Of a stretch of DNA of 64,000 bases, positions 32,941-61,810 are shown piece by piece. The notes under the pieces are model-generated. The model did not search any database. It saw nothing but the letters and a program-made list of their open reading frames with translations, and was not told where the DNA came from. Each line of letters begins with the position of its first letter. Within the stretch, counting starts at the first letter, position 1. A program made the position numbers and the translations under genes. The stretch comes from Azorhizobium caulinodans ORS 571 (GTDB lineage: Bacteria > Pseudomonadota > Alphaproteobacteria > Rhizobiales > Xanthobacteraceae), in the NCBI RefSeq assembly GCF_000010525.1, contig NC_009937.1:1183501-1247500 (forward strand). Direction: 5' to 3'.

Positions 32941-33357
32941 ATGAGCGAAGCTACGGAATCGACCACCTACATCGAGCTGGCTGCGGATATCGTCTCCGCT
33001 TACGTCAGCAACAACTCGGTCGCGGCGGCAGACCTCCCCAACCTCATCAATGAGGTTCATGCAGCGCTCCAGCGTGTCTCCAAGGGCGAGAGTGAGCCGG
33101 CGCCCGAGCCGCTGAAGCCCGCGGTGCCCGTCAAGAAGTCCGTCACCCCGGATTTCATCGTCTGTCTCGAAGACGGCAAGAAGTTCAAGTCGCTGAAGCG
33201 CCACCTGCGCACGCAGTACAACATGAGCCCCGAGCAGTATCGCGAGAAGTGGGCCCTGCCGCCGGATTATCCGATGGTCGCCCCCAATTACGCGGCCGCC
33301 CGCTCCGAACTCGCCAAGCAGATGGGTCTCGGCCAGCAGCGTCGCCGCCGTCGTTGA
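32941..33357 (+). CDS. mucR: MucR/Ros family transcriptional regulator
   Basis: A 138-residue regulator. The N-terminal helical oligomerisation part ([17 protein letters not shown]) is followed by a Ros-type zinc-finger region at about 85-125, [19 protein letters not shown] then SPEQYREKW. Relative to Ros, the second zinc Cys is Asp and the last His is replaced (TQY), so zinc binding by this domain may be lost or changed, as in some MucR paralogues. MucR proteins silence AT-rich promoters and affect exopolysaccharide, motility and cell cycle. The ATG at 32941 fits the family N-terminus. Confidence 0.93.
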
Positions 33358-33771: not shown

Positions 33772-33860
33772 TCTTGAGCCGCATCCCTCGCCTGTATGCG
33801 GCTTGCCAGCCCTTGCCATAAAAACGTTTTGCCGTCAGGAGCCGGTGGCCAGTGGTGCCG

Positions 33861-33871
33861 ACTTATCCCCC
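33861..33871. promoter_or_regulatory. Mirrored ACTTATCCCCC element
   Basis: Exact reverse complement of GGGGGATAAGT at 33755-33765, 95 bases apart. It shares the TTATCC core with the other two sites of this region, so it may be a half-site for the same regulator. Confidence 0.4.
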
Positions 33872-33892
33872 TTGCGTTTCCGTGTGTCACGT

Positions 33893-33912
33893 TATAGGAA
33901 ATTTATCCTATA
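33893..33912. promoter_or_regulatory. Palindromic candidate operator in the gafY-like leader
   Basis: TATAGGA and TCCTATA form a perfect 7-bp inverted repeat around a six-base AT spacer, ending two bases before the ribosome site GGGAG (33915-33919) of the gafY-like gene. A protein bound here would block promoter or initiation. The same core recurs at 33758-33771. Confidence 0.55.
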
Positions 33913-33926
33913 TTGGGAGATGCGCG

Positions 33927-34349
33927 ATGGATGCGGCCTGCCTGCTGCCTGTGAGGGTCAGTCCTGGAGTTGAACCGTGGTTCGGTCCCTCGGCAGGGGA
34001 GACGGAGGCTCCGGCGACATCCCGCCGCCTGCGGTGCTCCGGGTCGGATCTCTCGCTGCTGTGCCGCATGGCGGCACTGGCGGCGGCCCGCCACGATGCC
34101 GCTCTCGCGCAGGAGATGCTGGCCACCTGCGACCGCAGTGCCCCGGTGGCCCGTGCCCGCCAGCTTGCCATGTATCTCGCCCATGTGGCGCTGGGCCTGA
34201 CGCAAAGCCAGGTGGCAGAAGGCTTCCGGCGCGATCGCCGGACGGTGGCGCATGCCTGCCTGCGCATCGAGGAGCGGCGGGAGGCGCCGGCCTTCGACGG
34301 CGACGTGACCGTGCTGGAGGCAGGCCTGCGCTGGGTGGCCGCGCGATGA
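33927..34349 (+). CDS. DnaA-like helix-turn-helix regulator, GafY-like
   Basis: A 140-residue protein whose C-terminal half (about 77-118) looks like the DNA-binding domain IV of DnaA: RARQLAMYLAHVALGLTQSQ then FRRDRRTVAHACLRIEERRE, where RDRRTVAHA parallels the DnaA signature RDHTTVLHA. No ATPase domain is present, so it is not an initiator. In Caulobacter the GTA activator GafY, and the first half of Rhodobacter GafA, have such a domain and are followed by a DUF6456 partner, as here. By gene order and motifs I infer a GafY-type activator. ATGA overlap with the next gene; GGGAG seven bases before the ATG. Confidence 0.72.
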   Translation: MDAACLLPVRVSPGVEPWFGPSAGETEAPATSRRLRCSGSDLSLLCRMAALAAARHDAALAQEMLATCDRSAPVARARQLAMYLAHVALGLTQSQVAEGFRRDRRTVAHACLRIEERREAPAFDGDVTVLEAGLRWVAAR

Positions 34350-34876
34350 GCCGGGCCATGCCCCGCCGTGCGGCCTCCGGTCGCCACCCGCCTGCGCGCA
34401 CCGCAGCTCCGGTCGTCACCGATGAGAGCCCGCTCGACTGGCTCGCCCGCCGCAGGGGGCGCGACGGCACGCCCCTGATCACTCCGGCCCAGCAGGGCGC
34501 CGGAGAACGGCTGCGGCGGGATTTCACGCAGGCCGGCCTCACGCCCCGCGTCACCGCCAACTGGTCGGCGCTCGGCACGGGGGCGGCCGGTGCCGCGGGC
34601 AGCCCCGGCAGCTTCAGCGACGTGGTGCTTGCGGCCAAGACGCGCTTTGCGCTGGCGATGCGCGCGCTCGGTCCGGAACTCTCGGGTACTGTCGTCGATG
34701 TTTGCTGTTTTCTGAAAGGACTGGAAACCGTGGAAAGCGAGCGGCGCTGGCCGCCGCGCACCGCGAAGGTCGTGCTCGGGCTGGGTCTCGACCGGCTGGC
34801 CCGTCACTACGGCCTTGCCTCGCAGGCGCAGGGACGGGGCACGGCGCCGACGCGGGCCTGGCATGCGGGGGAGTGA
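34346..34876 (+). CDS. DUF6456 protein, GafZ-like
   Basis: A 176-residue protein with the DUF6456 pattern: DESPLDWLARRRGRDG (27-41), then AGERLRRDFTQAGLTPRVTANW (52-73 across) and a C-terminal helical region with DVCCFLKGLETVE and WPPRTAKVVLGLGLDRLARHY. DUF6456 proteins downstream of a DnaA-like HTH gene include GafZ of Caulobacter, reported to act as an antiterminator letting polymerase pass terminators in the GTA cluster. The ATG overlaps the preceding stop (ATGA), so both proteins should be made together. Function is inferred from this pairing and from the GTA cluster downstream. Confidence 0.72.
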   Translation: MSRAMPRRAASGRHPPARTAAPVVTDESPLDWLARRRGRDGTPLITPAQQGAGERLRRDFTQAGLTPRVTANWSALGTGAAGAAGSPGSFSDVVLAAKTRFALAMRALGPELSGTVVDVCCFLKGLETVESERRWPPRTAKVVLGLGLDRLARHYGLASQAQGRGTAPTRAWHAGE

Positions 34877-35366: not shown

Positions 35367-35801
35367 TCAGGCGGTGGCGAGGGCGGCCCGGGCGTCGGCG
35401 CGGATGCGCTCCACCATGGAGCGCAGGCCGTTGGAGCGCTGCGGCGTGAGATGGCCTTCGAGCCCGATGCGACGGAACACCGCCAGCGCGTCGGTCTCGA
35501 GGATCTCCTTGGCCGTATGGCCGGAGAGCACGGTGAGCAGCACCGCCACGAGGCCGCGCACGATATGGGCGTCGGAGTCGCCCCGATAGTCCAGCACCGG
35601 GCCATCCGCCGTGTCGCGGCGCGCGCCCACGAGCCACACTTGGCTGGCGCAGCCCTGCACCTTGTTGGCTTCCGTGCGCAGCTCCTCCGGCAGGTCCGGC
35701 AGGCTGCGGCCGAGTTCGATCACGAAGCGGTAACGGTCTTCCCAATTGTCCAGAAGCTCGAAGTCCTCGATCAGGTCTTCGGCGGTCTTGGGCTTGGTCA
35801 T
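35367..35801 (-). CDS. sufE: Cysteine desulfuration protein SufE
   Basis: A 144-residue sulfur acceptor that takes persulfide sulfur from SufS for iron-sulfur cluster assembly. The active Cys51 lies in EANKVQGCASQVWL, and the N-terminal EDFELLDNWEDRYRFVIELG and C-terminal LTPQRSNGLRSMVERIR are standard. The suf operon is not adjacent, so it is an orphan SufE. ATG at 35801 is chosen. Convergent with the DUF805 gene with a 12-base gap. Confidence 0.93.
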   Translation of the reverse strand: MTKPKTAEDLIEDFELLDNWEDRYRFVIELGRSLPDLPEELRTEANKVQGCASQVWLVGARRDTADGPVLDYRGDSDAHIVRGLVAVLLTVLSGHTAKEILETDALAVFRRIGLEGHLTPQRSNGLRSMVERIRADARAALATA

Positions 35802-35895
35802 GGAAAGTGTCCGTTCTCGTCGTCTGGCCGGGCGCACGGGTGCGCGTTCCGCCTCATATAGGCGGCAGCACGCGCTTGCGAAAGCGTGCGGGAGA

Positions 35896-36318
35896 TCAGG
35901 CGGGACGGCGCGGGGGCAGGGGCATGCCGGGGGCGGGCGCGCCGCGCTGCGGCTCCAGACTCCAGGCGGGCGCGAGGTCCTGCGGGGTCAGGTCGTGGGA
36001 AGCGCTGCCTTCCTTTGCGGCAGACGGCTGGGGCGCGGCGGGAGCGGTGCCCGCATCGGCCTTGTGGGCGCCGATGGCGTCATAGACCCATTTGGCGCTC
36101 GCCTGCGCCTTCTCCGCCATGTGGTCGAGCATTTCGCCGCCCACCGCGCAGGCATCCGGCTGGCGCTGGCAGAAGCCGCGCGCATCGTTGATGGCCGCCT
36201 GCACGGCGGTGAAGGCCTGCCACGCGCCGATCTGCCGCCCGCCGTCGCTGGTGACGCCGATGGGCAGGATCAGAAGGATGAGGGCCAGCCAGAAGGCCAT
36301 TCGCAGCAGGAAGAACAT
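35896..36318 (-). CDS. DUF5330 small membrane protein
   Basis: A 140-residue protein beginning MFFLLRMAFWLALILLILP, a membrane anchor or uncleaved signal typical of DUF5330 in rhizobia. The middle contains an FCQRQPDACAVGGEMLDHM stretch with two cysteines, and the tail is Ala/Pro-rich. Function is unknown. ATG at 36318 is chosen over an upstream ATG that adds a non-conserved charged stretch. It lies upstream of sufE on the same strand. Confidence 0.8.
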   Translation of the reverse strand: MFFLLRMAFWLALILLILPIGVTSDGGRQIGAWQAFTAVQAAINDARGFCQRQPDACAVGGEMLDHMAEKAQASAKWVYDAIGAHKADAGTAPAAPQPSAAKEGSASHDLTPQDLAPAWSLEPQRGAPAPGMPLPPRRPA

Positions 36319-48966: not shown

Positions 48967-49273
48967 AACGGCAGCGCGGGACGCACCCGGCACGCCGGAG
49001 GGAAACCGGCGGCAGGGAGGGGCCGAGTACCCAAGTGCAGTTCCCGAAGTTCAAGCTTCCGACGTTCGAAAGACCCGAGTTTCGTCTCCAAGTTCCAGAG
49101 TTCCGAAGTCCCCAAACGCCGGGTCCCGACCGGGCTCGGCCACCGGTACCAAGTCGCAAAGTCGTGTGTCCTCAAGTGTCAGTACCCAGTGCCAAGACCA
49201 GCGTTTGCGTTCGGTTCGAGTTCCTGAGGGTTCGTGAGTTTGGTCTCCCGACCGGAGTTTAGGAAAATATGCC

Positions 49274-49302
49274 TTGACAGCGTGCCGCTCATCAGGCATC
49301 TT
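49274..49302 (+). promoter_or_regulatory. Possible promoter of the GTA cluster
   Basis: TTGACA at 49274-49279 is followed after 17 bases by CATCTT (49297-49302), a poor -10 match that might need an activator. The inverted repeat ATGCCT/AGGCAT (49269-49274, 49294-49299) overlaps both elements. Confidence 0.35.
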
Positions 49303-49330
49303 TTCTCCATGCTCCGGAATTGTGACTTGA

Positions 49331-49367
49331 AAGGCGCCGCATCGCCCCCGCGGCGCCTTCCTTTTTT
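49331..49367 (+). terminator. Intrinsic terminator in the GTA leader
   Basis: AAGGCGCCGC pairs perfectly with GCGGCGCCTT across a nine-base loop and is followed by CCTTTTTT. A classical rho-independent terminator on the plus strand, 61 bases before the first GTA gene and about 30 bases after the possible promoter. Unless it serves the small gene 550 bases upstream, it would stop GTA transcription and so is a candidate target for antitermination by the GafZ-like protein. Confidence 0.8.
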
Positions 49368-49428
49368 CCGGCGTCCGCGGTGCCCCTTCGCACCCCGCGT
49401 GAACACGAACGCCCGGGATCTGCACCCA

Positions 49429-50004
49429 ATGACCGCTCCCGCCTCTCCCGCCGCCGTGGCCCGCGCCCGCGCCCTGCGCGGCGAGGGTCTCGAGCCCGCC
49501 GCCATCGCCGCCAAGACCGGCCTCTCGCTTCGCCAGCTCGGCTACTGGCTGCGCCCCGATGCCGGGACGCCCCGCCCGACCGCGCGCCGCGCCGGCAAGG
49601 GCCGCAAGCGCGCGGCGCGCAAGGCCGCCCGCCCGCCGAGCCCCGCCGCCCGCCTTCGGATGATGGGACGTCTCTGGACGGCTGCCGAGGCGCAGATGGC
49701 CGAGATCGAGGCCCGCCTCCAGCGGCTCGCCGAAGGGGAGGGGTCGGCCCGAGATGGCGTACAGGACGCCCGCGCGCTCGCCATTCTCGCCCGCGTCATG
49801 CGCGATCTCTCCGCCCTCGATGCCGCCGCCCGCAAGGCGCGTGCCGAGGCGGCGCCCCCGGCAGGAGCCGCGCCGCTCTCTCCCGAGGGGGCCGGCGCCT
49901 TCCGCGCCGAGCTCGCCCGCCGCCTTGCCGGCCTGTGCGACAGCGTGCAGCCGCCGGCCCCCGACACTCCGCCGGAGGGTACGGCACTGCTCTCCCAAGG
50001 GTAA
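49429..50004 (+). CDS. GTA small terminase-like protein (g1 position)
   Basis: A 191-residue basic protein. The N-terminal half has an HTH-like stretch GLEPAAIAAKTGLSLRQLGYWL (about 21-42 in parts) and then an Arg/Lys-rich segment; the second half is helical with WTAAEAQMAEIEARLQRLAEG. It occupies the place of orf g1 (TerS) in RcGTA, immediately before the large terminase. Its role would be to bind host DNA for headful packaging. ATG at 49429 is chosen; the frame upstream runs through the leader terminator and is not coding. Confidence 0.72.
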   Translation: MTAPASPAAVARARALRGEGLEPAAIAAKTGLSLRQLGYWLRPDAGTPRPTARRAGKGRKRAARKAARPPSPAARLRMMGRLWTAAEAQMAEIEARLQRLAEGEGSARDGVQDARALAILARVMRDLSALDAAARKARAEAAPPAGAAPLSPEGAGAFRAELARRLAGLCDSVQPPAPDTPPEGTALLSQG

Positions 50005-50123: not shown

Positions 50124-51494
50124 ATGTCGCTCGCCCTTCCCCCTCCCTCCGCCGCCGCTTTGCGTGCGGCCCTGGCGGCGGTGATGGCGGATGCGGGCGC
50201 GGCGCGGACGTTCCTCTCGGGCCTCGACGAGGCGGGCGCCGAACGCCTGCTCACCGATTGGGAGATCTGGGCGCGCCCCGACCAGTTGCCGCCGCCCGCC
50301 GCGTCCGGTGGCCGGCCCTGGACCACCTGGCTGGTGCTGGGCGGGCGGGGCGCCGGCAAGACGCGGGCGGGTGCCGAATGGGTGCGTGGACTGGCCCTCG
50401 GCCGGCCGCCTTTCGCGCCGGCCCCCGTGGGCCGCATCGCGCTGGTGGCCGAGACCATGGGCGATCTGCGGGAGGTGATGGTGGAGGGTGTGTCCGGCCT
50501 GCTCGCCGTCCATCCCGCCGCCGAACGGCCCCGCTGGGAGCCCACCCGCCGCCGCCTCGTCTGGCCCAATGGCGCGGTGGCGCAGGGCTTTTCCGCCGAG
50601 GACCCCGAAAGCCTGCGCGGGCCGCAATTCGAGGCCGCCTGGCTCGATGAACTCGCCAAGTGGCGGCGGGCCGAGGCGGTGTTCGACATGCTCCAGTTCG
50701 GCCTCCGGCTCGGCGCGCAGCCGCGCCAGATGGTGACGACGACGCCCCGCCCGAGCGCCCTGCTGCGCCGCCTCATGGCCGACCCGTCCACCGTCTTGAG
50801 CCGCGCAACCACGGCTCAGAACGCCTTTCACCTCGCGCCCGCTTTCCTCGACACGGTGCTGGCCCGCTATGGCGGCACGCGGCTCGGGCGGCAGGAACTG
50901 GAGGGCGAAATCATCGAGGACCGGCCCGACGCGCTCTGGACCCGTTCGGCCCTCGAGGCCGCCCGCGAGGCCGCGGCCCCGCCGCTCGCCCGCGTGGTGG
51001 TGGCCCTCGATCCGCCGGCCTCCTCGCGGGCCGGGGCGGACGCCTGCGGGATCATCGCCGCCGGCATCGACGGGGAGGGCCTTGTGCATGTCTTGGCGGA
51101 CGCCACCGCCGCCGGCCTGCGCCCCGCCCAATGGGCGGCGCGGGCCATCGACCTGTGGCGCACCCATGAGGCGGATGCGGTGGTGGCGGAGGTGAACCAG
51201 GGCGGCGAGATGGTGCGCAGCGTGCTCGCCGAGGTGGATGCCAGCGTGCCGGTGGTGAGCGTGCGCGCAACGCGCGGCAAGTATCTGCGCGCCGAGCCCG
51301 TCGCCGCTCTCTATGAGCAGGGGCGCGTGCGCCACGCCGGTGCCTTCCCGGCGCTGGAGGACGAGATGTGTGACTTCGGCCCGGAGGGCCTGTCCTCCGG
51401 CCGTTCGCCGGACCGGCTCGACGCCCTCGTCTGGGCCGTCACCCAGCTCGCCCTCGGCCCCCGCGCCCCGGCGCCGCGCGTGCGGCGGTTTTGA
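50124..51494 (+). CDS. GTA large terminase (g2)
   Basis: A 456-residue DNA-packaging motor. The ATPase part has Walker A GGRGAGKTRAG (73-83), a Walker B with Asp175-Glu176 in AAWLDELAKW, and the coupling segment MVTTTPRPS (about 203-211). The nuclease part begins at VVVALDPPASS (Asp296) and includes VVAEVNQGGEMVRS and the late DRLDALVWAV. All core residues seem present, so it could be active. GGAGG precedes the ATG at 50124. Downstream, a three-gene minus-strand cassette separates it from the portal gene. Confidence 0.93.
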   Translation: MSLALPPPSAAALRAALAAVMADAGAARTFLSGLDEAGAERLLTDWEIWARPDQLPPPAASGGRPWTTWLVLGGRGAGKTRAGAEWVRGLALGRPPFAPAPVGRIALVAETMGDLREVMVEGVSGLLAVHPAAERPRWEPTRRRLVWPNGAVAQGFSAEDPESLRGPQFEAAWLDELAKWRRAEAVFDMLQFGLRLGAQPRQMVTTTPRPSALLRRLMADPSTVLSRATTAQNAFHLAPAFLDTVLARYGGTRLGRQELEGEIIEDRPDALWTRSALEAAREAAAPPLARVVVALDPPASSRAGADACGIIAAGIDGEGLVHVLADATAAGLRPAQWAARAIDLWRTHEADAVVAEVNQGGEMVRSVLAEVDASVPVVSVRATRGKYLRAEPVAALYEQGRVRHAGAFPALEDEMCDFGPEGLSSGRSPDRLDALVWAVTQLALGPRAPAPRVRRF

Positions 51495-51512: not shown

Positions 51513-52364
51513 TCAGGCGGCGGCCAAAAGCGCCCGGAAGCCGAACAGCCGGGCGGCGGTGCCGCCGAGAACCTGCGGCAGCTCGGGGGCCGGGAAGACG
51601 CGGGCGAGGAGGGCCTTGAGGCCGGCGATGTCGGCTTCGCTTTCGTGCTGGGTATGCGGCCAGTCGCTGCCGATCATCAGGCGACCGGCGCCAAAGGCGG
51701 CGCGGGCCGCCTCGGCCAGCGGCAGCGGATCGCCGCCCCCGAGGCGGTAGGGCGCGGAGAGTTTCATGAAGAGGCGCGGCGTGCGCGCAGCCAGCAGCAT
51801 GAGGGCGGCCAAGCCGGGGTCATTCACGCCGAGGGCGGGGTCCGGCAGGCCGAAATGGTCCACCACCACCGCCGGCACGTCGCTTTCCAGCAACCCCGCC
51901 AGCAGGCGCGGATACCGCCGGGCCTGCGCCTGCACCTCGATCTGGAAACCGCAGCGGGCCGCCGCCGCGAGGAAGGCGCGCCAGACGGGATCGGCAAAAT
52001 CCGGGTCCGGCCGGCCGATCAGATTGAGCCGCACGCCGGCGATGCCTTGAGCCGCAAGCCCGCGCATCGCCCCTTCGGTGCAGTCCGGCGCCACCACGGC
52101 GATGCCGCGCAGATGGTCGGGATCGGCAGCGATCGCGGCCAGCAGATAGGAATTGTCCGTACCGAGGAAGCTCGGCTGCACCAGCACGCCGCCGGCAAAG
52201 CCGTTGGCCGCCCGCAGGGCCGCATAGGTCTCGGGCAGCGCGTCATAGGCCGGCACGTAGCGGGCGGCGGCAATGGTCGGCAGGTCGCGCCGGAAGATGT
52301 GGGCGTGGCTGTCGATGGCCATCAGGCCGGCGGAACGCCGCCGGCCGTCGAGGGGTTCGTTCAT
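51513..52364 (-). CDS. Amidohydrolase family 2 protein (metal-dependent hydrolase)
   Basis: A 283-residue TIM-barrel hydrolase. Metal-ligand motifs are DSHAHIF near the N-terminus, VVVDHFGLPDP mid-protein and IGSDWPHTQHE near the end. This is the style of 2-pyrone-4,6-dicarboxylate hydrolases and sugar-lactone hydrolases. Together with the adjacent MFS carrier and GntR regulator it should take up and hydrolyse a carboxylic lactone or similar compound. The cassette is on the strand opposite to the GTA genes that flank it. ATG at 52364. Confidence 0.85.
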   Translation of the reverse strand: MNEPLDGRRRSAGLMAIDSHAHIFRRDLPTIAAARYVPAYDALPETYAALRAANGFAGGVLVQPSFLGTDNSYLLAAIAADPDHLRGIAVVAPDCTEGAMRGLAAQGIAGVRLNLIGRPDPDFADPVWRAFLAAAARCGFQIEVQAQARRYPRLLAGLLESDVPAVVVDHFGLPDPALGVNDPGLAALMLLAARTPRLFMKLSAPYRLGGGDPLPLAEAARAAFGAGRLMIGSDWPHTQHESEADIAGLKALLARVFPAPELPQVLGGTAARLFGFRALLAAA

Positions 52365-52389
52365 GTTGCGGGACCGGATGCGCGGCGGC

Positions 52390-53676
52390 TCATTGCGCCG
52401 GGGCGGACGAGCGCACGCCCGCACCGGCCGGCGCGCCGGGCGCGTCCACCGCGTCGAGCTTCACCGCCTTGGTCTCGGGTAGCATGAGCACCGCCACCAC
52501 CACGAGGCCATAGGCCACCGCTGCATCGATGCCGATGGCGGCGCCGAGCGACATCTGCTCGGACAGATGGCCGACGAGGAAGGGGAAGATGGCGGAAACG
52601 ATGCGCCCGGCATTGTAGCAGAAGCCGACGCCGGTGCCGCGGATGCCGCCCGGATACAGCTCGGAGAACAGCGCGCCCATGCTGGCCGGAATGCCGGCCG
52701 AGCAGAAGCCCAGCGGGAAGCCGAGGATCAGCATGGCGGTGTCGCCGATGGGCAGGAACACATAGGCCAGCACGACGATGACGCAGGAGAGCGCGAACAG
52801 GCCCACCGTGCGCCGGCGGCCGATGCGGTCCAGCAGATGCGCGGCGGCGATGCAGCCGAAGAAGAAGGCGACGATGATGACCGCCAGATAGGCGCCGGTG
52901 CCCAGCGTGGAGAGATGGCGCTCGGTCTTGAGATACGTGGGCAGCCAGCTCGTCACCGCGTAATAGCCGCCGTGGGCGCCGGTGCCGAGCAGAAGGCCCA
53001 CCAGCGTGACGCGCAGCACGTCCGGCGAGAAGATGCCGAGCAGCGGCGTGCGCGCCTGCTGCGCCTTGGGCGCGCGGGCCGGCGAGGCCTCGGGCTCGGG
53101 CACATGGCGGCGCACGAAGATGACGAGGATCGCCGGGATGAGGCCGAGGCCGAACAGCAGGCGCCAGGCGATTTCCGGCGGCACGAAGGAATAGATGCTG
53201 GTCTGGATCAGCACCGAGGCGCCCCAGCCCACGGCCCAGGCGCTCTGCACGGTGCCCAGCGCCTTGCCGCGGTGGCTCGGGCGGATGGCCTCGCTCATGA
53301 GCGCGACACCGGCCGCCCATTCGCCGCCGAAGCCGAGGCCCTGCAAGGCTTTCAGCACGAGGAGCTGGTTGTAATCCTGCGCGAAGGCGGAGGCGAAGGT
53401 CGCGAGCGCGAACCACAGGATCATCACCTGCAGGGCGCGCACGCGGCCGATGCGGTCCGAAATGGCCCCGCCGACCCAGCCGCCCAGCGCCGAGGCGATG
53501 AGCGTCACGCTGGTGATCATGCCCGCATCGGCCTTGCTGATGTGCCAGAGGGCAAGCAGCGTCGGGATGACGAGGGAGAAGAGCTGGACGTCGAGCGCAT
53601 CGAGCGCCCAGCCGCCGAAGCAGGCCCAGAATGTCTTGCGCTCGGTGGCGTCGATCTCGCGGAACCAACTGAACAT
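52390..53676 (-). CDS. MFS transporter, metabolite:H+ symporter type
   Basis: A 428-residue 12-TM carrier. It opens FWACFGGWALDALDVQLFSLVIP, the style of the aromatic acid/sialic acid:H+ symporters, has motif A GGAISDRIGRVRALQ, GFGGEWAAGVALMSE, and the second-half motif AHLLDRIGRRRT. It probably imports the substrate of the neighbouring amidohydrolase. 25 bases separate the two genes. ATG 53676. Confidence 0.9.
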   Translation of the reverse strand: MFSWFREIDATERKTFWACFGGWALDALDVQLFSLVIPTLLALWHISKADAGMITSVTLIASALGGWVGGAISDRIGRVRALQVMILWFALATFASAFAQDYNQLLVLKALQGLGFGGEWAAGVALMSEAIRPSHRGKALGTVQSAWAVGWGASVLIQTSIYSFVPPEIAWRLLFGLGLIPAILVIFVRRHVPEPEASPARAPKAQQARTPLLGIFSPDVLRVTLVGLLLGTGAHGGYYAVTSWLPTYLKTERHLSTLGTGAYLAVIIVAFFFGCIAAAHLLDRIGRRRTVGLFALSCVIVVLAYVFLPIGDTAMLILGFPLGFCSAGIPASMGALFSELYPGGIRGTGVGFCYNAGRIVSAIFPFLVGHLSEQMSLGAAIGIDAAVAYGLVVVAVLMLPETKAVKLDAVDAPGAPAGAGVRSSAPAQ

Positions 53677-53763
53677 GGGTGTCCTCCGGCAGGCCCGCGC
53701 GGCTCTTGCGGCCGGCTGGCGCCTTGCGTGAACGGTTGCGAACGAAAATGAGCGGCGGACCGC

Positions 53764-54567
53764 TCAGCGGATCTCGATGCGGTAGCGGAAGCGGTCGGCG
53801 GGGCCGCGCGAGCGGCGCCACTCGATGGGATGGCGATCGAAGCCGAGCGCCACACGGTCCACCACCACCACGGGCGCGCCGGCGGGGATCTCCAGCACGC
53901 GGGCGTCCTTCTCGGTAGCGAGGTCGATGGTGAGCGTCTCCTCGGCAGAGGCGACCACCTCGCCGCACAGGCGCTCATAGAGCGGATAGAGCAGGTCGCC
54001 GAAGCCGGTGAGGACGAGATCCTCCAGCGGCGCGAAGCGGGCGCGCGGCAGCCAGATTTCCTCGGCGAAGACCGGGGTGCCGTCGATGAGGCGCAGGCGG
54101 TCGATGCGCAAGGCGAGCGACTTCGGCGCGAGGCCGAGCGCCCTCGCGGGTTCCGCCGGGCAGGGGGCGACCTTGCGGGCGAGCACGCGGCCCTCGGGCA
54201 TGGCGCGCGCCCCGTCCGCCCCCTCGGCGCGGAAGAAGCGGAAGAGCGAGCGGTCGAGGGAGGGGCGGCGCACGAAGGTGCCGCGCCCCTGCACCCGGTC
54301 GAGCACGCCCTCGGCCACCAGCGTGTCGAGCGCCTTGCGCACGGTGCCGAGCGCCACGCCGTTGACGCGGGCGATCTCGCTTTCCGCCGGAATGGCCGTG
54401 CCCGGCCCCCAGTCGCCCGCGACGATGCGGGCGACGATGGCGTCGCGCAGGCGCTGATAGAGGGGCAGGCGGCTGTCGCTGGTCTCGCTGAGCGCGAGCA
54501 CGGCGCCGGGCGCATCGGCCGATGCGTCCGCCTGCGTCCTGTCCGCGTCCACAGCGTGCTGGCTCAT
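53764..54567 (-). CDS. GntR family regulator with UTRA domain (HutC type)
   Basis: A 267-residue regulator. A winged HTH (PLYQRLRDAIVARIVAGDWG then VNGVALGTVRKALDTLVAEG and VQGRGTFV, about 35-100) is followed by a UTRA ligand domain with GLAPKSLALRIDRLRLIDG and VFAEEIWLP. It likely represses the transporter-hydrolase genes until substrate arrives. The region before its start carries overlapping palindromes (54594-54613). First gene of the cassette. Confidence 0.9.
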   Translation of the reverse strand: MSQHAVDADRTQADASADAPGAVLALSETSDSRLPLYQRLRDAIVARIVAGDWGPGTAIPAESEIARVNGVALGTVRKALDTLVAEGVLDRVQGRGTFVRRPSLDRSLFRFFRAEGADGARAMPEGRVLARKVAPCPAEPARALGLAPKSLALRIDRLRLIDGTPVFAEEIWLPRARFAPLEDLVLTGFGDLLYPLYERLCGEVVASAEETLTIDLATEKDARVLEIPAGAPVVVVDRVALGFDRHPIEWRRSRGPADRFRYRIEIR

Positions 54568-54831: not shown

Positions 54832-56004
54832 ATGCTGTCGTCCGTCTTCCAGGCCCTGCGCCCGCGTCCCGCCGAGGCCAAGGCGAGCCGCACCGCCGCG
54901 CTGGTGGCGCTGCTCGCCACCGGCCGCGCCCGCTGGACGCCCCGCGATTATGCCGGGCTCGCCCGCGAGGGCTTTGCCCGCAATGCGGTGGCCTATCGCG
55001 CCGTTCGGCTGATCAGCGAGGCCGCCGCCAGCGTGCCGCTGCTCTTGATGGACGGCGACCGCGAGATCGACGCCCATCCGCTGCTGGACCTCCTCGCACG
55101 GCCCCATCCGCGTGCGGCGAAGGCGGATTTCCTGGAGGCGCTGTGCGGCCATCTGCTGGTGGCCGGCAATGCCTATGTGGAAGCGGTGGCGGTGGAGGGC
55201 GCCGTGCGCGAACTCCACGTGCTGCGGCCGGATCGCGTGCGCATCGTGCCCGGCCCCGACGGCTGGCCGGAGGCGTTCGACTACACGCTGGAGGGCCGCA
55301 CCCTGCGCATTCCGCAGGAGAGCATCGTGCCGGGCGCCGACGTGCCGCCGGTGCTGCACCTCGCCTTGTTCAATCCGCTGGATGATCTCTACGGCTTCGC
55401 CCCGCTGGAGGCGGCGGCGCAGGCGCTCGATCTGCACAATGCCGCCGGCGCCTGGAACAAGGCGCTGCTCGACAATGCCGCGCGCCCTTCCGGCGCGCTG
55501 GTCTATGGCGGCACGGGTTCGCTCTCCGAGGAACAGTTCGCGCGGCTCAGGGAAGAACTGGAGGCGAGCTTCCAGGGTGCCGCCAATGCCGGCCGCCCGC
55601 TGCTGCTGGAAGGCGGGCTCGACTGGAAGCCCCTCGGCCTCAGCCCGAAGGACATGGATTTCGCCGCCGCCCGCGAGGCCGCCGCGCGGGAGATCGCGCT
55701 GGCGCTCGGCGTGCCGCCCATGCTGCTTGGCATTCCGGGCGACAACACCTATGCCAATTATGCCGAGGCCAACCGCGTGCTTTGGCGCCAGAGCGTGCTG
55801 CCGCTGGTGAAGCGGGTTGCCGGTGCGCTGAGCGCCTGGCTCGCGCCGGCCTTCGGTTCGGGCCTCGCGCTCGTGCCCGACCTCGACCAGGTGGAGGCGC
55901 TCGCCGCCGAGCGCTCCGAGCTCTGGAGCCGCGTGAACGCGGCCGATTTCCTCACCGATGCGGAGAAGCGCGCGGCGGTCGGCTACGGCCCCGTCGCGCC
56001 CTGA
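54832..56004 (+). CDS. GTA portal protein (g3, HK97 family)
   Basis: A 390-residue phage portal. Recognisable stretches include AYRAVRLISEAAASVPLLL, HPLLDLLARPHPRAAKADFL, the NPLDDLYGFAPLEAAAQALD segment and GVPPMLLGIPGDNTYANYAEA, all usual in HK97-type portals and RcGTA g3. It would form the dodecameric channel through which DNA is packed. The ATG at 54832 follows GAGGGAG. It is separated from terminase by the antisense cassette, so it needs readthrough or its own promoter in 54614-54831. Confidence 0.92.
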   Translation: MLSSVFQALRPRPAEAKASRTAALVALLATGRARWTPRDYAGLAREGFARNAVAYRAVRLISEAAASVPLLLMDGDREIDAHPLLDLLARPHPRAAKADFLEALCGHLLVAGNAYVEAVAVEGAVRELHVLRPDRVRIVPGPDGWPEAFDYTLEGRTLRIPQESIVPGADVPPVLHLALFNPLDDLYGFAPLEAAAQALDLHNAAGAWNKALLDNAARPSGALVYGGTGSLSEEQFARLREELEASFQGAANAGRPLLLEGGLDWKPLGLSPKDMDFAAAREAAAREIALALGVPPMLLGIPGDNTYANYAEANRVLWRQSVLPLVKRVAGALSAWLAPAFGSGLALVPDLDQVEALAAERSELWSRVNAADFLTDAEKRAAVGYGPVAP

Positions 56005-56435: not shown

Positions 56436-56618
56436 ATGCGAGCCCCCTTCATCGCCAGGGCATCGGCGCCGCGCATCCGGGCGCTGTCGCCGGCGCCGGT
56501 CCGGCGCGCGGCGCCGCAGAGCACCAGCGTGTTCCGCGATTTCGTCGCCACCCTCGAGCGCCTCGAGAAGGCGCGGCGTCGCAAGGGCGCGGGCCAGGGT
56601 GCGGGCAAGGTGCGTTGA
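56436..56618 (+). CDS. Small basic protein in the GTA cluster, hypothetical
   Basis: A 60-residue, strongly basic protein (MRAPFIARASAPRIRALSP at the start, RRRKGAGQGAGKVR at the end) with GGAG about six bases upstream. Its stop overlaps the protease ATG (TGATG). Tight coupling supports a real gene. It could help scaffold assembly, but no family is recognised. Confidence 0.55.
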   Translation: MRAPFIARASAPRIRALSPAPVRRAAPQSTSVFRDFVATLERLEKARRRKGAGQGAGKVR

Positions 56619-57148
56619 TGGGCGCCGCCTTTTCTCCACCGGGCCTTGGGGCAGCGACGGCGCGCTTCGAGGGCTATGCCTGTCTGTTCGACCGGCAGGA
56701 TCTCGGCCGCGACGTGATCGCCCCCGGCGCCTTTGCCGAGACGCTGGCGCGGCGGGGCGTCGCTGGCGTGCGGCTGCTCTATCAGCACGACCCCGCCGAG
56801 CCCATCGGCGTGTGGACCTCACTCATCGAGGACGGCATCGGCCTCAAGGTCGAGGGCGAGCTCACGCTCGGCGTCGGCCGGGCGCGCGAGGTGGCGGCGC
56901 TCATCGGCGTCGGTGCGCTCGATGGCCTCTCCATCGGCTTCAAGGCGGTGGAGGCCCGCACCGACCCGCGCACCCGCGTGCGGCGGATCACCCGCATCGA
57001 TCTCTGGGAGGTGTCCATCGTCACCTTCCCCATGCAGCCGGACGCGCGCATCCGCCGCCCGCCGCCGCCTCTCCTCGCGATGCGGGCCGCGGCCGATGCC
57101 GTGTCCCGCGCCGCCGCCCGCCTGCGGCCGCATCTGGCGGCCGTCTGA
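56618..57148 (+). CDS. GTA prohead protease (g4, HK97 family)
   Basis: A 176-residue serine protease that matures the procapsid. The catalytic His57 is in LLYQHDPAEPIG and Ser105 in LDGLSIGFKA; FEGYACLFDRQDLGRDVI opens the domain and RIDLWEVSIVTFPMQP closes it. It should remove the N-terminal delta region of the capsid protein encoded next. Start overlaps the small gene stop. Confidence 0.93.
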   Translation: MGAAFSPPGLGAATARFEGYACLFDRQDLGRDVIAPGAFAETLARRGVAGVRLLYQHDPAEPIGVWTSLIEDGIGLKVEGELTLGVGRAREVAALIGVGALDGLSIGFKAVEARTDPRTRVRRITRIDLWEVSIVTFPMQPDARIRRPPPPLLAMRAAADAVSRAAARLRPHLAAV

Positions 57149-57174: not shown

Positions 57175-58419
57175 ATGAGCGATCTCCTTTCCGCCCCCGA
57201 GACCAAGGTGGCGGCGCCCGAGCGCCAGTCGGCCCTCGACACGCTGATGCACGCCTTCGAGACCTACAAGACCGCCAACGAGACCCGCCTCGCGGAGATC
57301 GAGCGGCGCGGCGCCGCCGATCCGCTGCTCGATGAGCGCATGCGGCGGCTGGACCATGTGATCGACGCCTGCAAGGCGCGCATGGACCGGCTGGAGACGG
57401 AGCGCCGCCGCCCGCCTCTCGGCATCACGCGGACCGAGGCGCCGCGCGGCGAGCACGGCGCGGCCTTCACCGGCTATGTGCGCCACGGCGCCAGCGACGG
57501 CCTGAAGGCTCTGGAGGCCAAGTCCCTCTCCACCGGCGTCGGCGCCGACGGCGGCTATCTCGTGCCCTATGAGACCGAGCAGGAGATCGGGCGCCGCCTT
57601 GCCGCCCTTTCGCCCATCCGCGCGCTCGCCACCGTGCGCACCATCGGCGCCGGCACCTATCGCAAGCCGTTCATGACCTCCGGTCCCATGGTGGGCTGGG
57701 CGGCGGAAACGGCGGCGCGGCCGCAGACCGACAGCCCGGTGCTGGCGGAACTCGCCTTTCCGGCCATGGAGCTCTACGCCATGCCTGCCGCCACGCAGGC
57801 GCTGCTCGACGACGGGCAGGTGAATGTGGAGGAGTGGCTGGCGGGCGAGGTGGACAGCGCCTTCGCCGAGCAGGAGGGCGCCGCTTTCGTCTCCGGCGAC
57901 GGCACGGCCAAGCCCACCGGCTTCCTCGCTTATCCGAAGGTGGCGGAAAGCGGCTGGAGCTGGGGCAAGACGGGCTATGTGGCGACCGGCGTCGCGGGGG
58001 GCTTTCCCGCGTCCGATGCCGCCGATCCGCTGCTCGATCTCGTCTATGCGCTGAAGGGCGGCTATCGCCAGAACGCGGCCTTCGTCATGAACCGCCGCAC
58101 CCAGGCCGCCGTGCGCAAGCTGAAGGACGATGCGGGAGCCTATCTCTGGACGCCGCCGGCCGGTGCCGGCCAGCCGGCGAGCCTCATGGGCTTTCCGGTA
58201 CAGGAGGCCGAGGCTATGCCGGACATCGGCGACGGGGCCTTCGCCATCGCCTTCGGCGACTTCCGGCGCGGCTATCTGGTGGTGGACCGGGCGGGCGTGC
58301 GGGTGTTGCGCGATCCCTATTCCGCCAAGCCCTACGTGCTGTTCTACACCACCAAGCGCGTGGGCGGCGGCATCCAGGACTTCGATGCCATCAAGCTGCT
58401 GAAGTTCGCCGCCGGCTGA
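57175..58419 (+). CDS. GTA major capsid protein (g5, HK97 fold)
   Basis: A 414-residue capsid protein. The first roughly 105 residues are a charged helical delta/scaffold region (MHAFETYKTANETRLAEIERR), then the HK97 core with STGVGADGGYLVPYETEQEI, WAAETAARPQTDSP, VEEWLAGEVDSAFAEQEGAAF and GDGTAKPTGFL. Complete and standard in length for RcGTA g5. A stable hairpin overlaps its stop codon, and a convergent protease gene follows where the head-tail connector should be. Confidence 0.93.
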   Translation: MSDLLSAPETKVAAPERQSALDTLMHAFETYKTANETRLAEIERRGAADPLLDERMRRLDHVIDACKARMDRLETERRRPPLGITRTEAPRGEHGAAFTGYVRHGASDGLKALEAKSLSTGVGADGGYLVPYETEQEIGRRLAALSPIRALATVRTIGAGTYRKPFMTSGPMVGWAAETAARPQTDSPVLAELAFPAMELYAMPAATQALLDDGQVNVEEWLAGEVDSAFAEQEGAAFVSGDGTAKPTGFLAYPKVAESGWSWGKTGYVATGVAGGFPASDAADPLLDLVYALKGGYRQNAAFVMNRRTQAAVRKLKDDAGAYLWTPPAGAGQPASLMGFPVQEAEAMPDIGDGAFAIAFGDFRRGYLVVDRAGVRVLRDPYSAKPYVLFYTTKRVGGGIQDFDAIKLLKFAAG

Positions 58420-58438: not shown

Positions 58439-59206
58439 TCAGGGCACGGGGCTGCCGAGCTTGCGCGCGGTGGCCTCGATCCAGTCCCGCTGGAGGCCCA
58501 CCAGCGTGATGCCGGTGACGCCGCCGCAGCCGCGGGCGCCGTTGGGGCCCGTGGCCCAGCCGATGACGCCGGCCAGCAGGTTGCCCACGAAAGCCGGGCC
58601 GCCGCTGTCGCCGGTGCAGGCCCCCGCATTGCTCATGGGCGAGGCGAGGCGGGCCATGATGCCGCCCGTCGTGCCGATGGTAGGCAGGCTCGTGCAGCGC
58701 AGGGTGCCGGCGGTCTCGTCGGCCCCGTCCGAGGCCATGCCGTAACCGGCGATGAGATATTCCGCGCCCCGCTGCGGTAGGGTGTTGTCCTGCGTGAGCG
58801 CGGCCGGGCGGAAGCTTGGCGGCAGCGGCGAGGCGAGCTTCACCAGCGCGAGATCCGGCGTCGGATGGCGGTTGCGGAACTGGTCCGGATCGAAGCCGGG
58901 ATGCACCACGATCCGCAGCGCGGGAATGAGGCGCGGCGGGCCGGACCCGGTGATCGCCACCGCATAGCTGCCGGGCGGCGCGACGCAATGGGCGGCGGTC
59001 AGGATCAGATCCTGCGCCAGCGCGGTGCCCGAGCACGAGGCGCCCCGCGTCGAGACCAGCATGACGGTGTGGCTGGTGCCCTGGGCCGCGCCGGGGCGAC
59101 CGCCCACCACCGCGTGGCCGGGAGCAGCCTGCGCCAGAAGAAAGCCGGCGCAGAGCAGGGCGGAACCCAACGGACGCCCGCCGGACAACAGGAAACGAAG
59201 CAGCAC
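58439..59206 (-). CDS. Secreted trypsin-like serine protease (S1)
   Basis: A 255-residue exported protease with a signal peptide (about 1-32, ending GHA) and the mature start VVGGRPG. The triad is His73 in ILTAAHCV, Asp118 in HPTPDLALVK and Ser201 in CTGDSGGPAF. Cysteines C58, C74 and the pair near 171 and 197 would form disulfides. Phage clusters do not normally contain S1 proteases; it is inserted antisense between capsid and connector genes and probably has a host periplasmic or extracellular role. Confidence 0.9.
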   Translation of the reverse strand: MLLRFLLSGGRPLGSALLCAGFLLAQAAPGHAVVGGRPGAAQGTSHTVMLVSTRGASCSGTALAQDLILTAAHCVAPPGSYAVAITGSGPPRLIPALRIVVHPGFDPDQFRNRHPTPDLALVKLASPLPPSFRPAALTQDNTLPQRGAEYLIAGYGMASDGADETAGTLRCTSLPTIGTTGGIMARLASPMSNAGACTGDSGGPAFVGNLLAGVIGWATGPNGARGCGGVTGITLVGLQRDWIEATARKLGSPVP

Positions 59207-59321: not shown

Positions 59322-59885
59322 ATGACGCAACGTATTTCAGGCCCCGCTGCGGAACCGCTGACGCTGGCCGAGGCGAAGGACTTCCTGCGCCTCACCGATC
59401 CGTCAACGGACGTGCTCGTGGGTGCGCTGCTTTCCGCCGCCCGGCGGACCATCGAGAGCGCCACGGGGCGCGTCCTCATGACCCAGAGCTGGCGCCTCGT
59501 CCGCGACGCCTGGCCGGCGAGCGGGCTCTTCCTGCTGCCCATCGCGCCCGTCGCCAGCCTCGATGCGGCGCGGGTCCGGCGCGCCGACGGCACATGGGAG
59601 GAGGTGCCCGCCGGTCGCCTCTCGCTCCTCGGCGACCGCACGCCGCAGCTCATCGGCCTCGACCGCGCGCACCTGCCGCAGCCGGCCGTGGACCATGGCG
59701 GCATCGCCCTCGACGTGACCGCCGGCTATGGCCCGGAGCCCGCCGACGTGCCGTCGGATCTGCTGCAGGCGGTGCGGCTCACCCTCGCGCATTTCCATGA
59801 GCATCGCGACGTGGTGGGCGAGGCCATCGGCCTGCCGGGCGCCGTCCTCGCACTCATCGCGCCCTACCGGATGCTGCGGCTGTGA
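59322..59885 (+). CDS. GTA head-tail connector (g6)
   Basis: A 187-residue phiE125 gp8/HK97 gp6-type connector. The opening GPAAEPLTLAEAKDFLRLTDPSTD and AARRTIESATGRVLMTQSW are the family hallmarks, as is DVPSDLLQAVRLTLAHFHEHRD. It attaches to the portal on the capsid. ATG 59322 chosen; an ATG at 59301 adds seven residues. The GTA genes resume here after the antisense protease. Its stop overlaps the g7 start (GTGA). Confidence 0.88.
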   Translation: MTQRISGPAAEPLTLAEAKDFLRLTDPSTDVLVGALLSAARRTIESATGRVLMTQSWRLVRDAWPASGLFLLPIAPVASLDAARVRRADGTWEEVPAGRLSLLGDRTPQLIGLDRAHLPQPAVDHGGIALDVTAGYGPEPADVPSDLLQAVRLTLAHFHEHRDVVGEAIGLPGAVLALIAPYRMLRL

Positions 59886-60211
59886 GCGGGGCCATTCCCA
59901 TCGGCGCGCTGCGCCATCTCGTGACGCATCTGGCCCCGGTGTCGGTGCCGGACGGCTTCGGCGGCGCCAGCGTCACCTTCGTCGCCGTCGATCGCCTCTG
60001 GGCGGCGGTGGAGGAGAGCGCCGCGGGCGCGTTTGCCGACGAACGGCGCTTCGGCCTTGCCGGCGTGCGCGTGACCGTGCGCGCGCCCAACACGCTCAAG
60101 GCCGGCGACATCCTGCGTCACGGCACCCGCCGCCTCGCGGTGGAGGCGACCTGCGATCCGGACGGACGCGGCCGGTACACCCGCGCCATGTGCAGAGAGG
60201 AACAGACATGA
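59882..60211 (+). CDS. GTA head-tail adaptor/stopper (g7)
   Basis: A 109-residue protein of the phage head-tail joining family: GALRHLVTHLAPVSVPDGFGG, then VDRLWAAVEESAAGAFADERRF and VRAPNTLKAGDILRHGTRRL. It should close the capsid below the connector. GTG start within the previous stop; its own stop overlaps the next ATG (ATGA). Confidence 0.88.
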   Translation: MSGAIPIGALRHLVTHLAPVSVPDGFGGASVTFVAVDRLWAAVEESAAGAFADERRFGLAGVRVTVRAPNTLKAGDILRHGTRRLAVEATCDPDGRGRYTRAMCREEQT

Positions 60212-60399
60212 TCTCGGTGAAGATTTCAGGCCTGGATGGCCTCGTGGAACAACTGCTCGACAAGCTGCGCGACAAGGCGATGCACCTGCTGCTTGGCCGC
60301 GTGCCGGACCCTGCGCCCGCGCCCGATGGACCCGCCGATCCGGCCGCGGACGAGGCGCCGCCGCGCGCTTCGGACGGCACGCCGGGAGGCGGCGCGTGA
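60208..60399 (+). CDS. Small protein resembling the N-terminus of HK97 gp10
   Basis: A 63-residue protein that starts MISVKISGLDGLVEQLLDKL, like the first helix of HK97 gp10-type tail-completion proteins, then turns into an Ala/Pro/Asp-rich tail ending GTPGGGA. Full gp10 proteins are about 110-150 residues. It may be a remnant or an own small factor. It overlaps both neighbours (ATGA, GTGA), so it is translated in the chain. Confidence 0.6.
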   Translation: MISVKISGLDGLVEQLLDKLRDKAMHLLLGRVPDPAPAPDGPADPAADEAPPRASDGTPGGGA

Positions 60400-60809
60400 G
60401 CGCGCCGGCCTCCGCCGCACTCGCCCTGCGCAAGGCCATCCACCAGCGCCTTGCCGCCGACACCGCGCTCGGCGCACTGGTGGCGGGCGCCATCCATGAC
60501 GTGCCGCCGGCCGGTGTCCCCTTTCCCTATGTCACGCTCGGAGAGGCGGTGGTTTCCGACTGGTCCACCGCCACCGAGGCGGGCAGCGAGCAGGCGCTGA
60601 CGCTGCACGTCTTCTCCCGCCAGGGCGGCCGGGCGGAGGCCATGGCGCTGTGCGCCGCCGTGCAGGAGGCGTTGCACGAGGCGCCGCTCGCCCTCGACGG
60701 GCATCGCCTCGCCAATCTCAGGGCCACCACCGCCGAGGTGCGGCGCGACGGCGACGGGCGGACCTTCCACGGCTTCGTCCGCTTCCGCGCGGTGACCGAG
60801 GCGCTCTGA
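60396..60809 (+). CDS. GTA tail terminator (g8, DUF3168)
   Basis: A 137-residue DUF3168 protein with LRKAIHQRLAADTALGALV, VPFPYVTLGEAVVSDWST and LTLHVFSRQGGRAEAMAL. It caps the tail tube at its head end. GTG start overlaps the previous stop as GTGA. Confidence 0.9.
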   Translation: MSAPASAALALRKAIHQRLAADTALGALVAGAIHDVPPAGVPFPYVTLGEAVVSDWSTATEAGSEQALTLHVFSRQGGRAEAMALCAAVQEALHEAPLALDGHRLANLRATTAEVRRDGDGRTFHGFVRFRAVTEAL

Positions 60810-60835
60810 AGCGACATTTCCCGAAGGAGACTTCC

Positions 60836-61243
60836 ATGGCCGCGCAGATGGGCAAGGACCTGCTGCTCAAGATGCTGGATGGCGCCGATTACGTAACCGT
60901 CGCGGGCCTGCGCTCGCGCACGCTCGCCTTCAATGCCCAGACGGTGGACGTGACCCATTCCGAGAGCGCCGGCCGCTGGCGCGAACTGCTGGCGGGGGCG
61001 GGTGTGAAGCGCGCCAGCATTTCGGGGGCCGGCATCTTCAAGGATGCCGCCTCGGACGCGCTTGTGCGCGCCGCCTTCTTCGCCGGAGAGGTGCGCGACT
61101 GCGCGGTGGTGATCCCCGATTTCGGCACCGTTTCCGGTCCCTTCCTCATCAGCGCGCTGGAGATCGCCGGCCAGCATGACCGGGAAGTGACCTTCGACCT
61201 GACGCTGGAGAGCGCCGGCGCGCTCGCCTTCGCGGCACTGTGA
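60836..61243 (+). CDS. GTA major tail protein (g9, TP901-1 family)
   Basis: A 135-residue tube protein. MAAQMGKDLLLKML and VAGLRSRTLAFNAQTVDVTH with SESAGRWRELL are the TP901-1/RcGTA g9 signature; FKDAASDALVRAAFFAGEV follows. It would stack as hexamers to make the tail tube. ATG 60836 has AAGGAGA five bases upstream. Confidence 0.92.
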   Translation: MAAQMGKDLLLKMLDGADYVTVAGLRSRTLAFNAQTVDVTHSESAGRWRELLAGAGVKRASISGAGIFKDAASDALVRAAFFAGEVRDCAVVIPDFGTVSGPFLISALEIAGQHDREVTFDLTLESAGALAFAAL

Positions 61244-61254
61244 GGAGAGCGGCC

Positions 61255-61599
61255 ATGGCCAACCGGCATCGCGGGGAAATCTCCGCACACCTCGGCGGGC
61301 GGGACCGCACGCTGGTCCTCACGCTCGGCGCGCTGGCCGAACTGGAGGCCGCCTTCGCGGTGGAGGATCTCACAGCTCTGGCCGAGCGCTTCGGGCGCGG
61401 GCGACTCTGTGCGAGCGACATGGTGCGCCTCATCGGTGCCGGCCTGCGGGGTGCGGGCGAAACGATCGATGATGAAGAGGTGGCGCGGCTCGCCTGTCCC
61501 GAAGGGGCGGTCGGCTATGCGCGCATCGTTTCGGCTTTGCTCTCGGGCACCTTCGGGGGCGGGGAGGCGCCGCGCCCTCCGGTGCCGCAGGAGACCTGA
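61255..61599 (+). CDS. GTA g10 tail assembly protein
   Basis: A 114-residue gene transfer agent family protein (g10): ANRHRGEISAHLGGRDRTLV, LTLGALAELEAAFAVEDLTAL and LGAGLRG-like LIGAGLRGAGETI. Usually regarded as a tail assembly chaperone. ATG at 61255 has GAGGAGAG six bases upstream, in the overlap with the g9 stop region. Its stop overlaps the possible CTG start of the next gene. Confidence 0.85.
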   Translation: MANRHRGEISAHLGGRDRTLVLTLGALAELEAAFAVEDLTALAERFGRGRLCASDMVRLIGAGLRGAGETIDDEEVARLACPEGAVGYARIVSALLSGTFGGGEAPRPPVPQET

Positions 61600-61802: not shown

Positions 61803-61810
61803 AGATAGAG

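Follow-up and report, generated by a model that had tools for sequence, protein, structure and literature searches.

Genes and Regulatory Elements of the gafYZ Locus

The analyzed DNA (hereafter, the window) is a stretch of 64,000 nucleotides from Azorhizobium caulinodans ORS 571, corresponding to bases 1183501-1247500 of one 5,369,772-bp contig. It contains the genes gafY and gafZ, located between mucR and a sufE-DUF5330 gene pair, and, further downstream, a gene transfer agent (GTA) cluster with its predicted regulatory elements (Table 1). An earlier note on this DNA described a helix-turn-helix protein carrying the RDRRTVAHA motif that overlaps by ATGA a DUF6456 protein, and ascribed to the pair the composition of the GafY and GafZ activators; the open reading frames and the Pfam and structural searches agree on both counts. 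The motif is present in GafY, whose residues 62-114 match the profile PF08299 (Bac_DnaA_C, 1.7e-10). The best of its matches to DnaA domain IV among the PDB profiles is 1j1v (1.5e-14), and the top 12 rows obtained with its model in Foldseek are all DnaA entries. GafZ matches PF20057 (DUF6456) over profile positions 3-135 of 136 (4e-46), and structure comparison places its model nearest to sigma region 4, with a weak likeness. The two genes overlap by four bases (34346-34349), and a search across the 5,369,772-bp genome gave a single match, with no second gafZ-like protein.

Table 1. Annotated features of the window, with positions counted from its first nucleotide.
Feature	Position	Strand	Basis or description
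mucR, conserved upstream neighbor	32941..33357	+	Pfam 2e-55; synteny
gafYZ operator TATAGGAAATTTATCCTATA	33893..33912	.	TAGG-N8-CCTA palindrome, 20 bp
gafY	33927..34349	+	DnaA-domain-IV-type DNA-binding protein, 140 aa, ATG start
gafZ	34346..34876	+	DUF6456 protein, 176 aa
sufE and DUF5330, conserved downstream neighbors	35367..36318	-	Pfam; synteny
Class A penicillin-binding protein	42042-44204
Second operator copy	49260..49275	.	Overlaps -35 of GTA promoter
GTA late promoter (predicted)	49274..49302	+	-35 TTGACA 49274-49279, 17-bp spacer, -10 CATCTT 49297-49302
Candidate GafZ-binding element AGCGTGCCGCT	49279..49289	.	Palindrome between -35 and -10
Conserved initially transcribed block CATGCTCCGGAATTGTG	49308..49324	+	Alignment/consensus of relatives
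Terminator-like hairpin and T-run in GTA leader	49331..49368	+	10-bp stem, 9-nt loop, GC-rich
GTA gp1, putative small terminase	49429..50004	+	Place before TerL; homology in relatives
GTA large terminase (TerL)	50124..51494	+	Terminase_6N 3.7e-31, 6C 7.2e-25
Amidohydrolase/MFS/GntR set, between TerL and portal	51513..54567	-	Pfam
GTA portal	54832..56004	+	1.6e-86
GTA prohead protease	56618..57148	+	8.2e-33
GTA major capsid, HK97-type	57175..58419	+	1.3e-89
Trypsin-like protease, between capsid and gp6	58439..59110	-	1.9e-27
GTA gp6-gp11 (head-tail, tail tube, tape measure)	59322..62476	+
Two small genes between g11 and g12	62494-62802 and 63107-63871	-	Pfam: none matched

The gafYZ operon of Caulobacter crescentus, described together with the gtaT promoter, likewise encodes a DnaA-domain-IV protein and a DUF6456 protein (PMC11150451; PMC9632790). 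GafA of Rhodobacter capsulatus, the activator of an RcGTA-type cluster, has the same two domains (PMC9638019; PMC6363796); however, it is one fused protein, whereas the Azorhizobium pair is split (PMC9638019). The DUF6456 annotation was reported for GafA homologs by Sherlock and Fogg, and the central omega-binding region of GafA is poorly matched by Caulobacter GafYZ (PMC11150451). The Azorhizobium genes are almost certainly orthologs of GafY-GafZ from Caulobacter and of GafA from Rhodobacter; they are the split form of the GafA/GafYZ activator, and the pair itself is of an ordinary kind. A ChpT-like histidine phosphotransferase gene lies 4 kb upstream of gafYZ (29341-30006). The CckA-ChpT-CtrA phosphorelay acts on GTAs in other bacteria.

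The downstream cluster extends from gp1 through g15, and includes a match to PF11836 (GTA-gp10, 3.6e-28) and, at and beyond the window end, DUF2460, NlpC/P60, and the 1299-aa g15, which matches the NCBIfam model GTA_megatron (E = 0) as well as GTA_TIM (1.8e-132). Judged from the sequences of g15 and gp10, the cluster is an RcGTA-like gene transfer agent. RcGTA-like GTAs are particles that carry random host DNA. Antisense genes interrupt it at three junctions, namely TerL/portal, capsid/gp6, and g11/g12. The amidohydrolase/MFS/GntR insertion is shared by the window and A. doebereinerae, i.e., by two Azorhizobium species, and was not found in the third Azorhizobium genome (G442). The antisense trypsin-like gene occupies the capsid/gp6 junction in each of the 15 further family genomes with retrieved sequence spanning it, and also in one genome of another family. 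Many of the relatives' matches to the 63107 gene between g11 and g12, as well as to g13, look low-complexity.

Linkage of gafYZ to the GTA Structural Cluster

A split gafA between mucR and sufE was already reported for Hyphomicrobiales (PMC9638019), and the local gene order is identical to the Azorhizobium mucR-gafY-gafZ-sufE; linkage to the structural cluster and shared promoter elements go unmentioned in the available part of that report. In the window, the gafZ stop is separated from gp1 by 14.6 kb, in good agreement with the earlier note, which had placed an RcGTA-like cluster about 15 kb downstream. Its further claim that such closeness of activator and structural genes would be unusual was dropped in view of the tallies within and outside the order and of the intervening genes held in common. 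A sample of 199 genomes from the same order contains DUF6456 in 163 and GTA gp10 in 132, of which 150 and 130, respectively, entered the linkage tally, among the matches listed. On the same basis, both genes occur in 120 genomes and on one contig in 63; gafZ and gp10 are at most 60 kb apart in 55 of these 63, and in 48 of the 55 close pairs gp10 is downstream of gafZ on the same strand. For the single-contig genomes with both genes among the matches listed, 10 of 11 pairs read by eye fall within 60 kb. Outside the order, the distance, also read by eye, does not exceed 40 kb in 9 of the 12 genomes with both genes on one contig, two of these nine pairs depending on weak DUF6456 matches. The intervening genes common to the linked loci examined encode a histidine kinase, a peptidoglycan-binding protein, DUF1491, a penicillin-binding protein, and a CxxCxxCC protein; since the loci for this gene-order map were chosen for being linked, it describes order and not rate. 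Among the known systems, the Caulobacter gafYZ genes look unlinked from their GTA, judged by locus numbers (PMC9632790), and Rhodobacter gafA is said to be outside the head-tail cluster (PMC9765227). A gafA homolog was reported in 196 of 208 GTA-bearing genomes, having co-evolved with the cluster (PMC9765227).

A Putative Operator Common to the gafY and GTA Promoters

The TAGG-N8-CCTA palindrome is present both upstream of gafY and at the GTA promoter. Alignment of the upstream regions from three Azorhizobium genomes gave the forms TAGGAAAttwATCCT before gafY and TAGGAAAATATrCCT at the GTA promoter. With a criterion of at least 7 of the 8 bases of TAGG-N8-CCTA and an AT-rich center, the operator was found in 76 out of 114 distinct gafY upstream regions and not in the remaining 38, compared with a mean of 1.05 and a maximum of 3 in Markov sequences. 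Nine other palindromes have 0 to 11 occurrences in the same regions, and the control upstream regions of sufE (0/130) and DUF1491 (0/82) lack the operator. It was also identified upstream of TerL in 10 of 49 cases vs. 0.2 expected; the relatives share descent, and thus the operator and promoter counts are not independent. In the 5.37-Mb genome, there are two exact matches to the 15-bp form, one at gafYZ and one at the GTA promoter (49260), the pattern itself being derived from these two Azorhizobium sites. With one mismatch allowed, there are five places (six rows) vs. one for the reversed pattern. A looser 16-bp palindrome with two mismatches matches 7, 7, and 5 places in the three Azorhizobium genomes vs. 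3, 4, and 2 for its reversed form, so that single sites at this level are unsafe. Chance sharing of the palindrome was rejected against the Markov sequences, the other palindromes, the control genes, and the reversed patterns.

In Caulobacter, a stretch of the gafYZ promoter that contains two GGAA-N4-TTCC repeats is bound by RogA, a regulator with an XRE-type helix-turn-helix and a degenerate S24 domain (PMC9632790). The gafYZ promoter of the window contains one such repeat, GGAA-ATTT-ATCC, one base off this form, and some of the related palindromes in the 76 relatives have the exact core. From this likeness and from its position before gafY, we assign the operator to a RogA-like repressor, which is reasonably likely to act on both the gafY and GTA promoters. 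S24 proteins were found at two places in the genome, one of which is taken to be LexA. The S24 protein at 442149 of the chromosome (G000, L193) is a candidate repressor of the operator: its N-terminus looks helix-turn-helix-like by eye, a Pfam search gave no such match, and, in contrast to what is described for RogA, it seems to retain the catalytic residues.

The GTA Late Promoter and Its Leader

The region at 49.0-49.4 kb, in which the earlier note had suggested looking for binding, contains a conserved promoter block (49260-49302) that is kept in the three Azorhizobium genomes. The pattern TAGGAN7CCTTGACA with at most one mismatch occurs in 24 of 55 TerL upstream regions (one place counted twice) vs. 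0.0 in Markov sequences. A longer pattern comprising the promoter and the palindrome has 105 matches in 77 of the 199 genomes of the order, 12 of these 77, including that of the window, underlying the loci from which the pattern was drawn; its reversed form has zero matches in the same genomes. In 49 of these 77 genomes, the pattern and gp10 share a strand, with gp10 4.0-14.6 kb farther downstream; in the remaining 28, the pattern is on another contig or at a greater distance, or gp10 is not among the matches listed. At two mismatches, it was not found in 61 of the 130 genomes with gp10 listed. Conversely, eight genomes (G233, G290, G329, G333, G337, G346, G358, and G380) have the pattern with no gp10 listed, and their GTA may be lost, diverged, or unlisted. 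Five genomes of family f151 (G210, G290, G321, G349, and G373) have 3-6 GTA-type promoters each vs. one in the genome of the window, so that GafZ may have several targets there.

The consensus over 29 promoters is TAGGAAaatA.tCC TTGACA gCGTgaCGcT. The second hexamer, tallied at an assumed fixed spacing of 17 bp, is TAGGGT in 14 of the 29 and a variant of it in 15, and is followed by CAtgcTCc. In the window, the -10 element CATCTT is weak, and a generic sigma-70 scan calls no promoter at 49274-49302. The end bases of the palindrome between -35 and -10, which were left free in the search pattern, are G-C in 66, C-G in 7, and unpaired in 15 of 88 sites; hence they pair in 73 sites, 7 of them by a full flip. 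Caulobacter GafZ binds an inverted repeat (ZBE) at the same position (PMC11150451); the palindrome of the window is unlike it in sequence. By this positional analogy, GafZ probably loads at the marked palindrome. Caulobacter GafY binds RpoD region 3-4 (PMC11150451) and has the site ACTATG (PMC11150451; PMC9632790), and the GTA promoter there has a degenerate -35 and needs IHF together with GafY (PMC11150451). With the consensus -35 of the Azorhizobium promoter, GafY may matter less or act differently. The IHF consensus was not found within 60 bp upstream of the 29 promoters, nor, at 8 or more of 9 positions, in 49000-49280 or 33600-33927 of the window, although degenerate sites could escape this search.

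The terminator-like hairpin begins about 20 and ends about 60 nt past the predicted transcription start (z = -3.0). A similar hairpin within 280 nt was found in 8 of 32 distinct promoters, vs. an expectation of 0.45 estimated with 640 segments drawn at random from these loci. A terminator scan tool does not call the hairpin at 49331, its loop limit being 8 nt vs. the 9-nt loop observed. Caulobacter GafZ reads through terminators, and omega is not enriched with it (PMC11150451). By analogy, we lean slightly toward a role for GafZ in antitermination within this leader.

Nuclease-Like Genes Associated With the Operator

Besides gafYZ and the GTA promoter, three one-mismatch operator places remain in the genome. 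Two of them precede by 36-37 bp the start codons of genes with an N-terminal PRxPAG motif (the start of L199 was chosen by eye), and the third adjoins a tRNA-like sequence, as read by eye. One of these PRxPAG genes has a relative in A. doebereinerae that also carries an operator site, at 36 bp. Among 30 family loci with relatives of this protein, the operator (at most two mismatches) was found in 10 vs. 0 for the reversed control and 0.0 in Markov sequences, and in 8 of these 10 a motif-bearing ORF begins 7-63 bp past the operator. Relatives were further identified beside the capsid gene inside the GTA clusters of 8 (L182, L183, L184, L185, L186, L188, L190, and L191) of the 15 further family genomes retrieved for this part of the cluster, and were not found there in 7, including the other two Azorhizobium genomes. 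The A. caulinodans gene L199 aligns with the capsid-side genes over most of its length (1.8e-26). Altogether, PRxPAG...GxW genes were seen in L198/L216, L199, and L207 (P0003), in L182-L186, L188, L190, and L191, and in L065.

In many Xanthobacteraceae, the genes beside the capsid gene of the GTA cluster encode proteins with the N-terminal motif PRVPAGxPxGGQW and an HNH-like C-terminus; in Azorhizobium and other genera, genes of this type are located elsewhere, preceded by a copy of the operator. We label them nuclease-like because of HH motifs read by eye and of weak Pfam matches to AHH (0.017) in one protein and to a Cas4-like family (0.008) in another. In all 12 genes inspected, the next same-strand ORF is of about 109-128 aa (two are clipped by the end of the stretch), and in 9 of them the two overlap by 4 bases; the single small gene profiled belongs to DUF2019 (2e-49). 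We regard the small ORFs as putative immunity genes. A bolder reading, which we consider less likely than not, is that the genes preceded by the operator form a GTA regulon with nuclease-immunity pairs among its members; the GTA particles of this family would then carry nuclease cargo along with DNA for use in bacterial competition, with gafYZ and the repressor as a common switch.

Proposed Regulatory Circuit and Alternative Explanations

The earlier note inferred that the gafYZ pair controls the RcGTA-like cluster, and this inference gains support from the shared operator and from the conserved promoter, in which a palindrome coincides with the place where GafZ binds in Caulobacter. Based on these sequence elements, gafYZ very probably controls the GTA cluster at 49.4 kb from a promoter 14.4 kb downstream. 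In the proposed circuit, a RogA-like XRE-family repressor would bind TAGG-N8-CCTA at the gafY promoter and at the GTA -35 element and keep both promoters off. Upon relief of repression, GafY and GafZ would be made; GafZ would load at the palindrome between -35 and -10 in the manner of a Q-type antiterminator, and would ride RNA polymerase past the early leader terminator, so that the late operon, including the stretches with antisense insertions, would be read. An antiterminating polymerase would suit transcription across such insertions. This account as a whole, combining a gafYZ switch, RogA-like repression, and GafZ antitermination of this cluster, appears probable to us.

The shared palindrome might alternatively be the binding site of GafY, used for autoactivation of gafYZ and for activation of the GTA genes. 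Its center, about 41 bp upstream of the predicted GTA start, is at a usual activator position, and the targets of GafY in Caulobacter include the gafYZ as well as the GTA promoter, whereas RogA, according to the available text of the report, is enriched at gafYZ and CCNA_02002 only and not at the GTA promoter (PMC9632790). However, the palindrome resembles the RogA site GGAA-N4-TTCC, and before gafY it ends 14 bp from the start codon, which is too near for an activator. Moreover, DnaA domain IV binds 9-mers as a monomer, which sits poorly with a 20-bp palindrome, and overall we consider a GafY site rather unlikely. We hold it slightly less likely still that GafZ works by recruitment or in a sigma-like way, the role suggested for GafA together with the omega subunit, rather than by antitermination. 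The weak resemblance of GafZ models to sigma region 4 and the reported recruitment of GafA via omega (PMC6363796; PMC9638019) are in its favor, but the terminator read-through by Caulobacter GafZ and the lack of omega enrichment (PMC11150451) argue against it, as do the consensus -35 already present in the GTA promoter and the terminator-like hairpin in the leader of the window. Finally, the antisense genes at three cluster junctions and the 14 kb between gafYZ and the cluster could indicate that the pair is a leftover that no longer controls it; this is highly improbable given that neither ORF is disrupted and each is conserved, that the cluster extends from gp1 to g15, and that three Azorhizobium genomes retain the promoter block.

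The Azorhizobium system resembles that of Caulobacter in its RcGTA-like cluster, in a palindromic element that separates the -35 from the -10, in a RogA-type repeat at gafYZ (one base off in the window), and in a terminator or terminator-like hairpin early in the operon (PMC11150451; PMC9632790). It differs in that the Azorhizobium gafYZ genes are linked to the cluster, the -35 element is consensus, and the operator also covers the GTA promoter. In addition, the terminator-like hairpin is in the leader, whereas the Caulobacter terminator follows the first gene, and IHF, which is used in Caulobacter, has no consensus site found in the Azorhizobium promoter regions (PMC11150451). New here are the cis-elements, i.e., the operator used twice, the conserved promoter, and the leader hairpin; the local gene order was already known.

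Possible Origin and Implications

In phage lambda, the Q gene is located just before the late promoter pR', whose Q site lies between -10 and -35 and which is followed by an early terminator and then by the terminase and head genes. The arrangement described here is alike in having an antiterminator-type gene, then a late promoter with a candidate site between -35 and -10, a hairpin, and terminase; however, in the window host genes separate the activator from the promoter, and no sequence or structural similarity of GafZ to lambda Q is reported in the available text of PMC11150451. A promoter of this type lies between gafZ and TerL in a genome of another order (G108) and in three contigs that IMG/VR lists as viral. 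A GTA-type promoter directly follows gafZ in L073 and in two of these contigs (L085 and L086), and is 1.4 kb after it in the third (L088); all three contigs have the TTGAC-palindrome part and lack the operator. In the fourth contig, L083, gafZ precedes TerL and a GTA-type promoter was not found. All four contigs, viral by their IMG/VR listing, resemble RcGTA-type clusters in which gafZ precedes the terminase. A phage-looking contig, L091, encodes a DUF6456-like protein (9728-10405, 35% identity) and has no matches to the GTA genes of the window, so that phage forms of the DUF6456 family may exist. By analogy, the layout over the class fits a phage late-control module (Q, pR', terminase) into which host genes were inserted, which provides a testable account of the origin of GafYZ.

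GTA control is understood for Caulobacter and Rhodobacter; there, the activator lies outside the structural cluster and the GafY motif is hard to define (PMC11150451; PMC9632790). The 30-bp promoter pattern and the 16-20-bp operator can be used to search genomes for GTA regulons, and the conserved promoter palindrome supplies a candidate site for GafZ. If the nuclease-like genes belong to the regulon, the GTAs of Xanthobacteraceae would also be weapons, which would change the debate on why bacteria retain GTAs.
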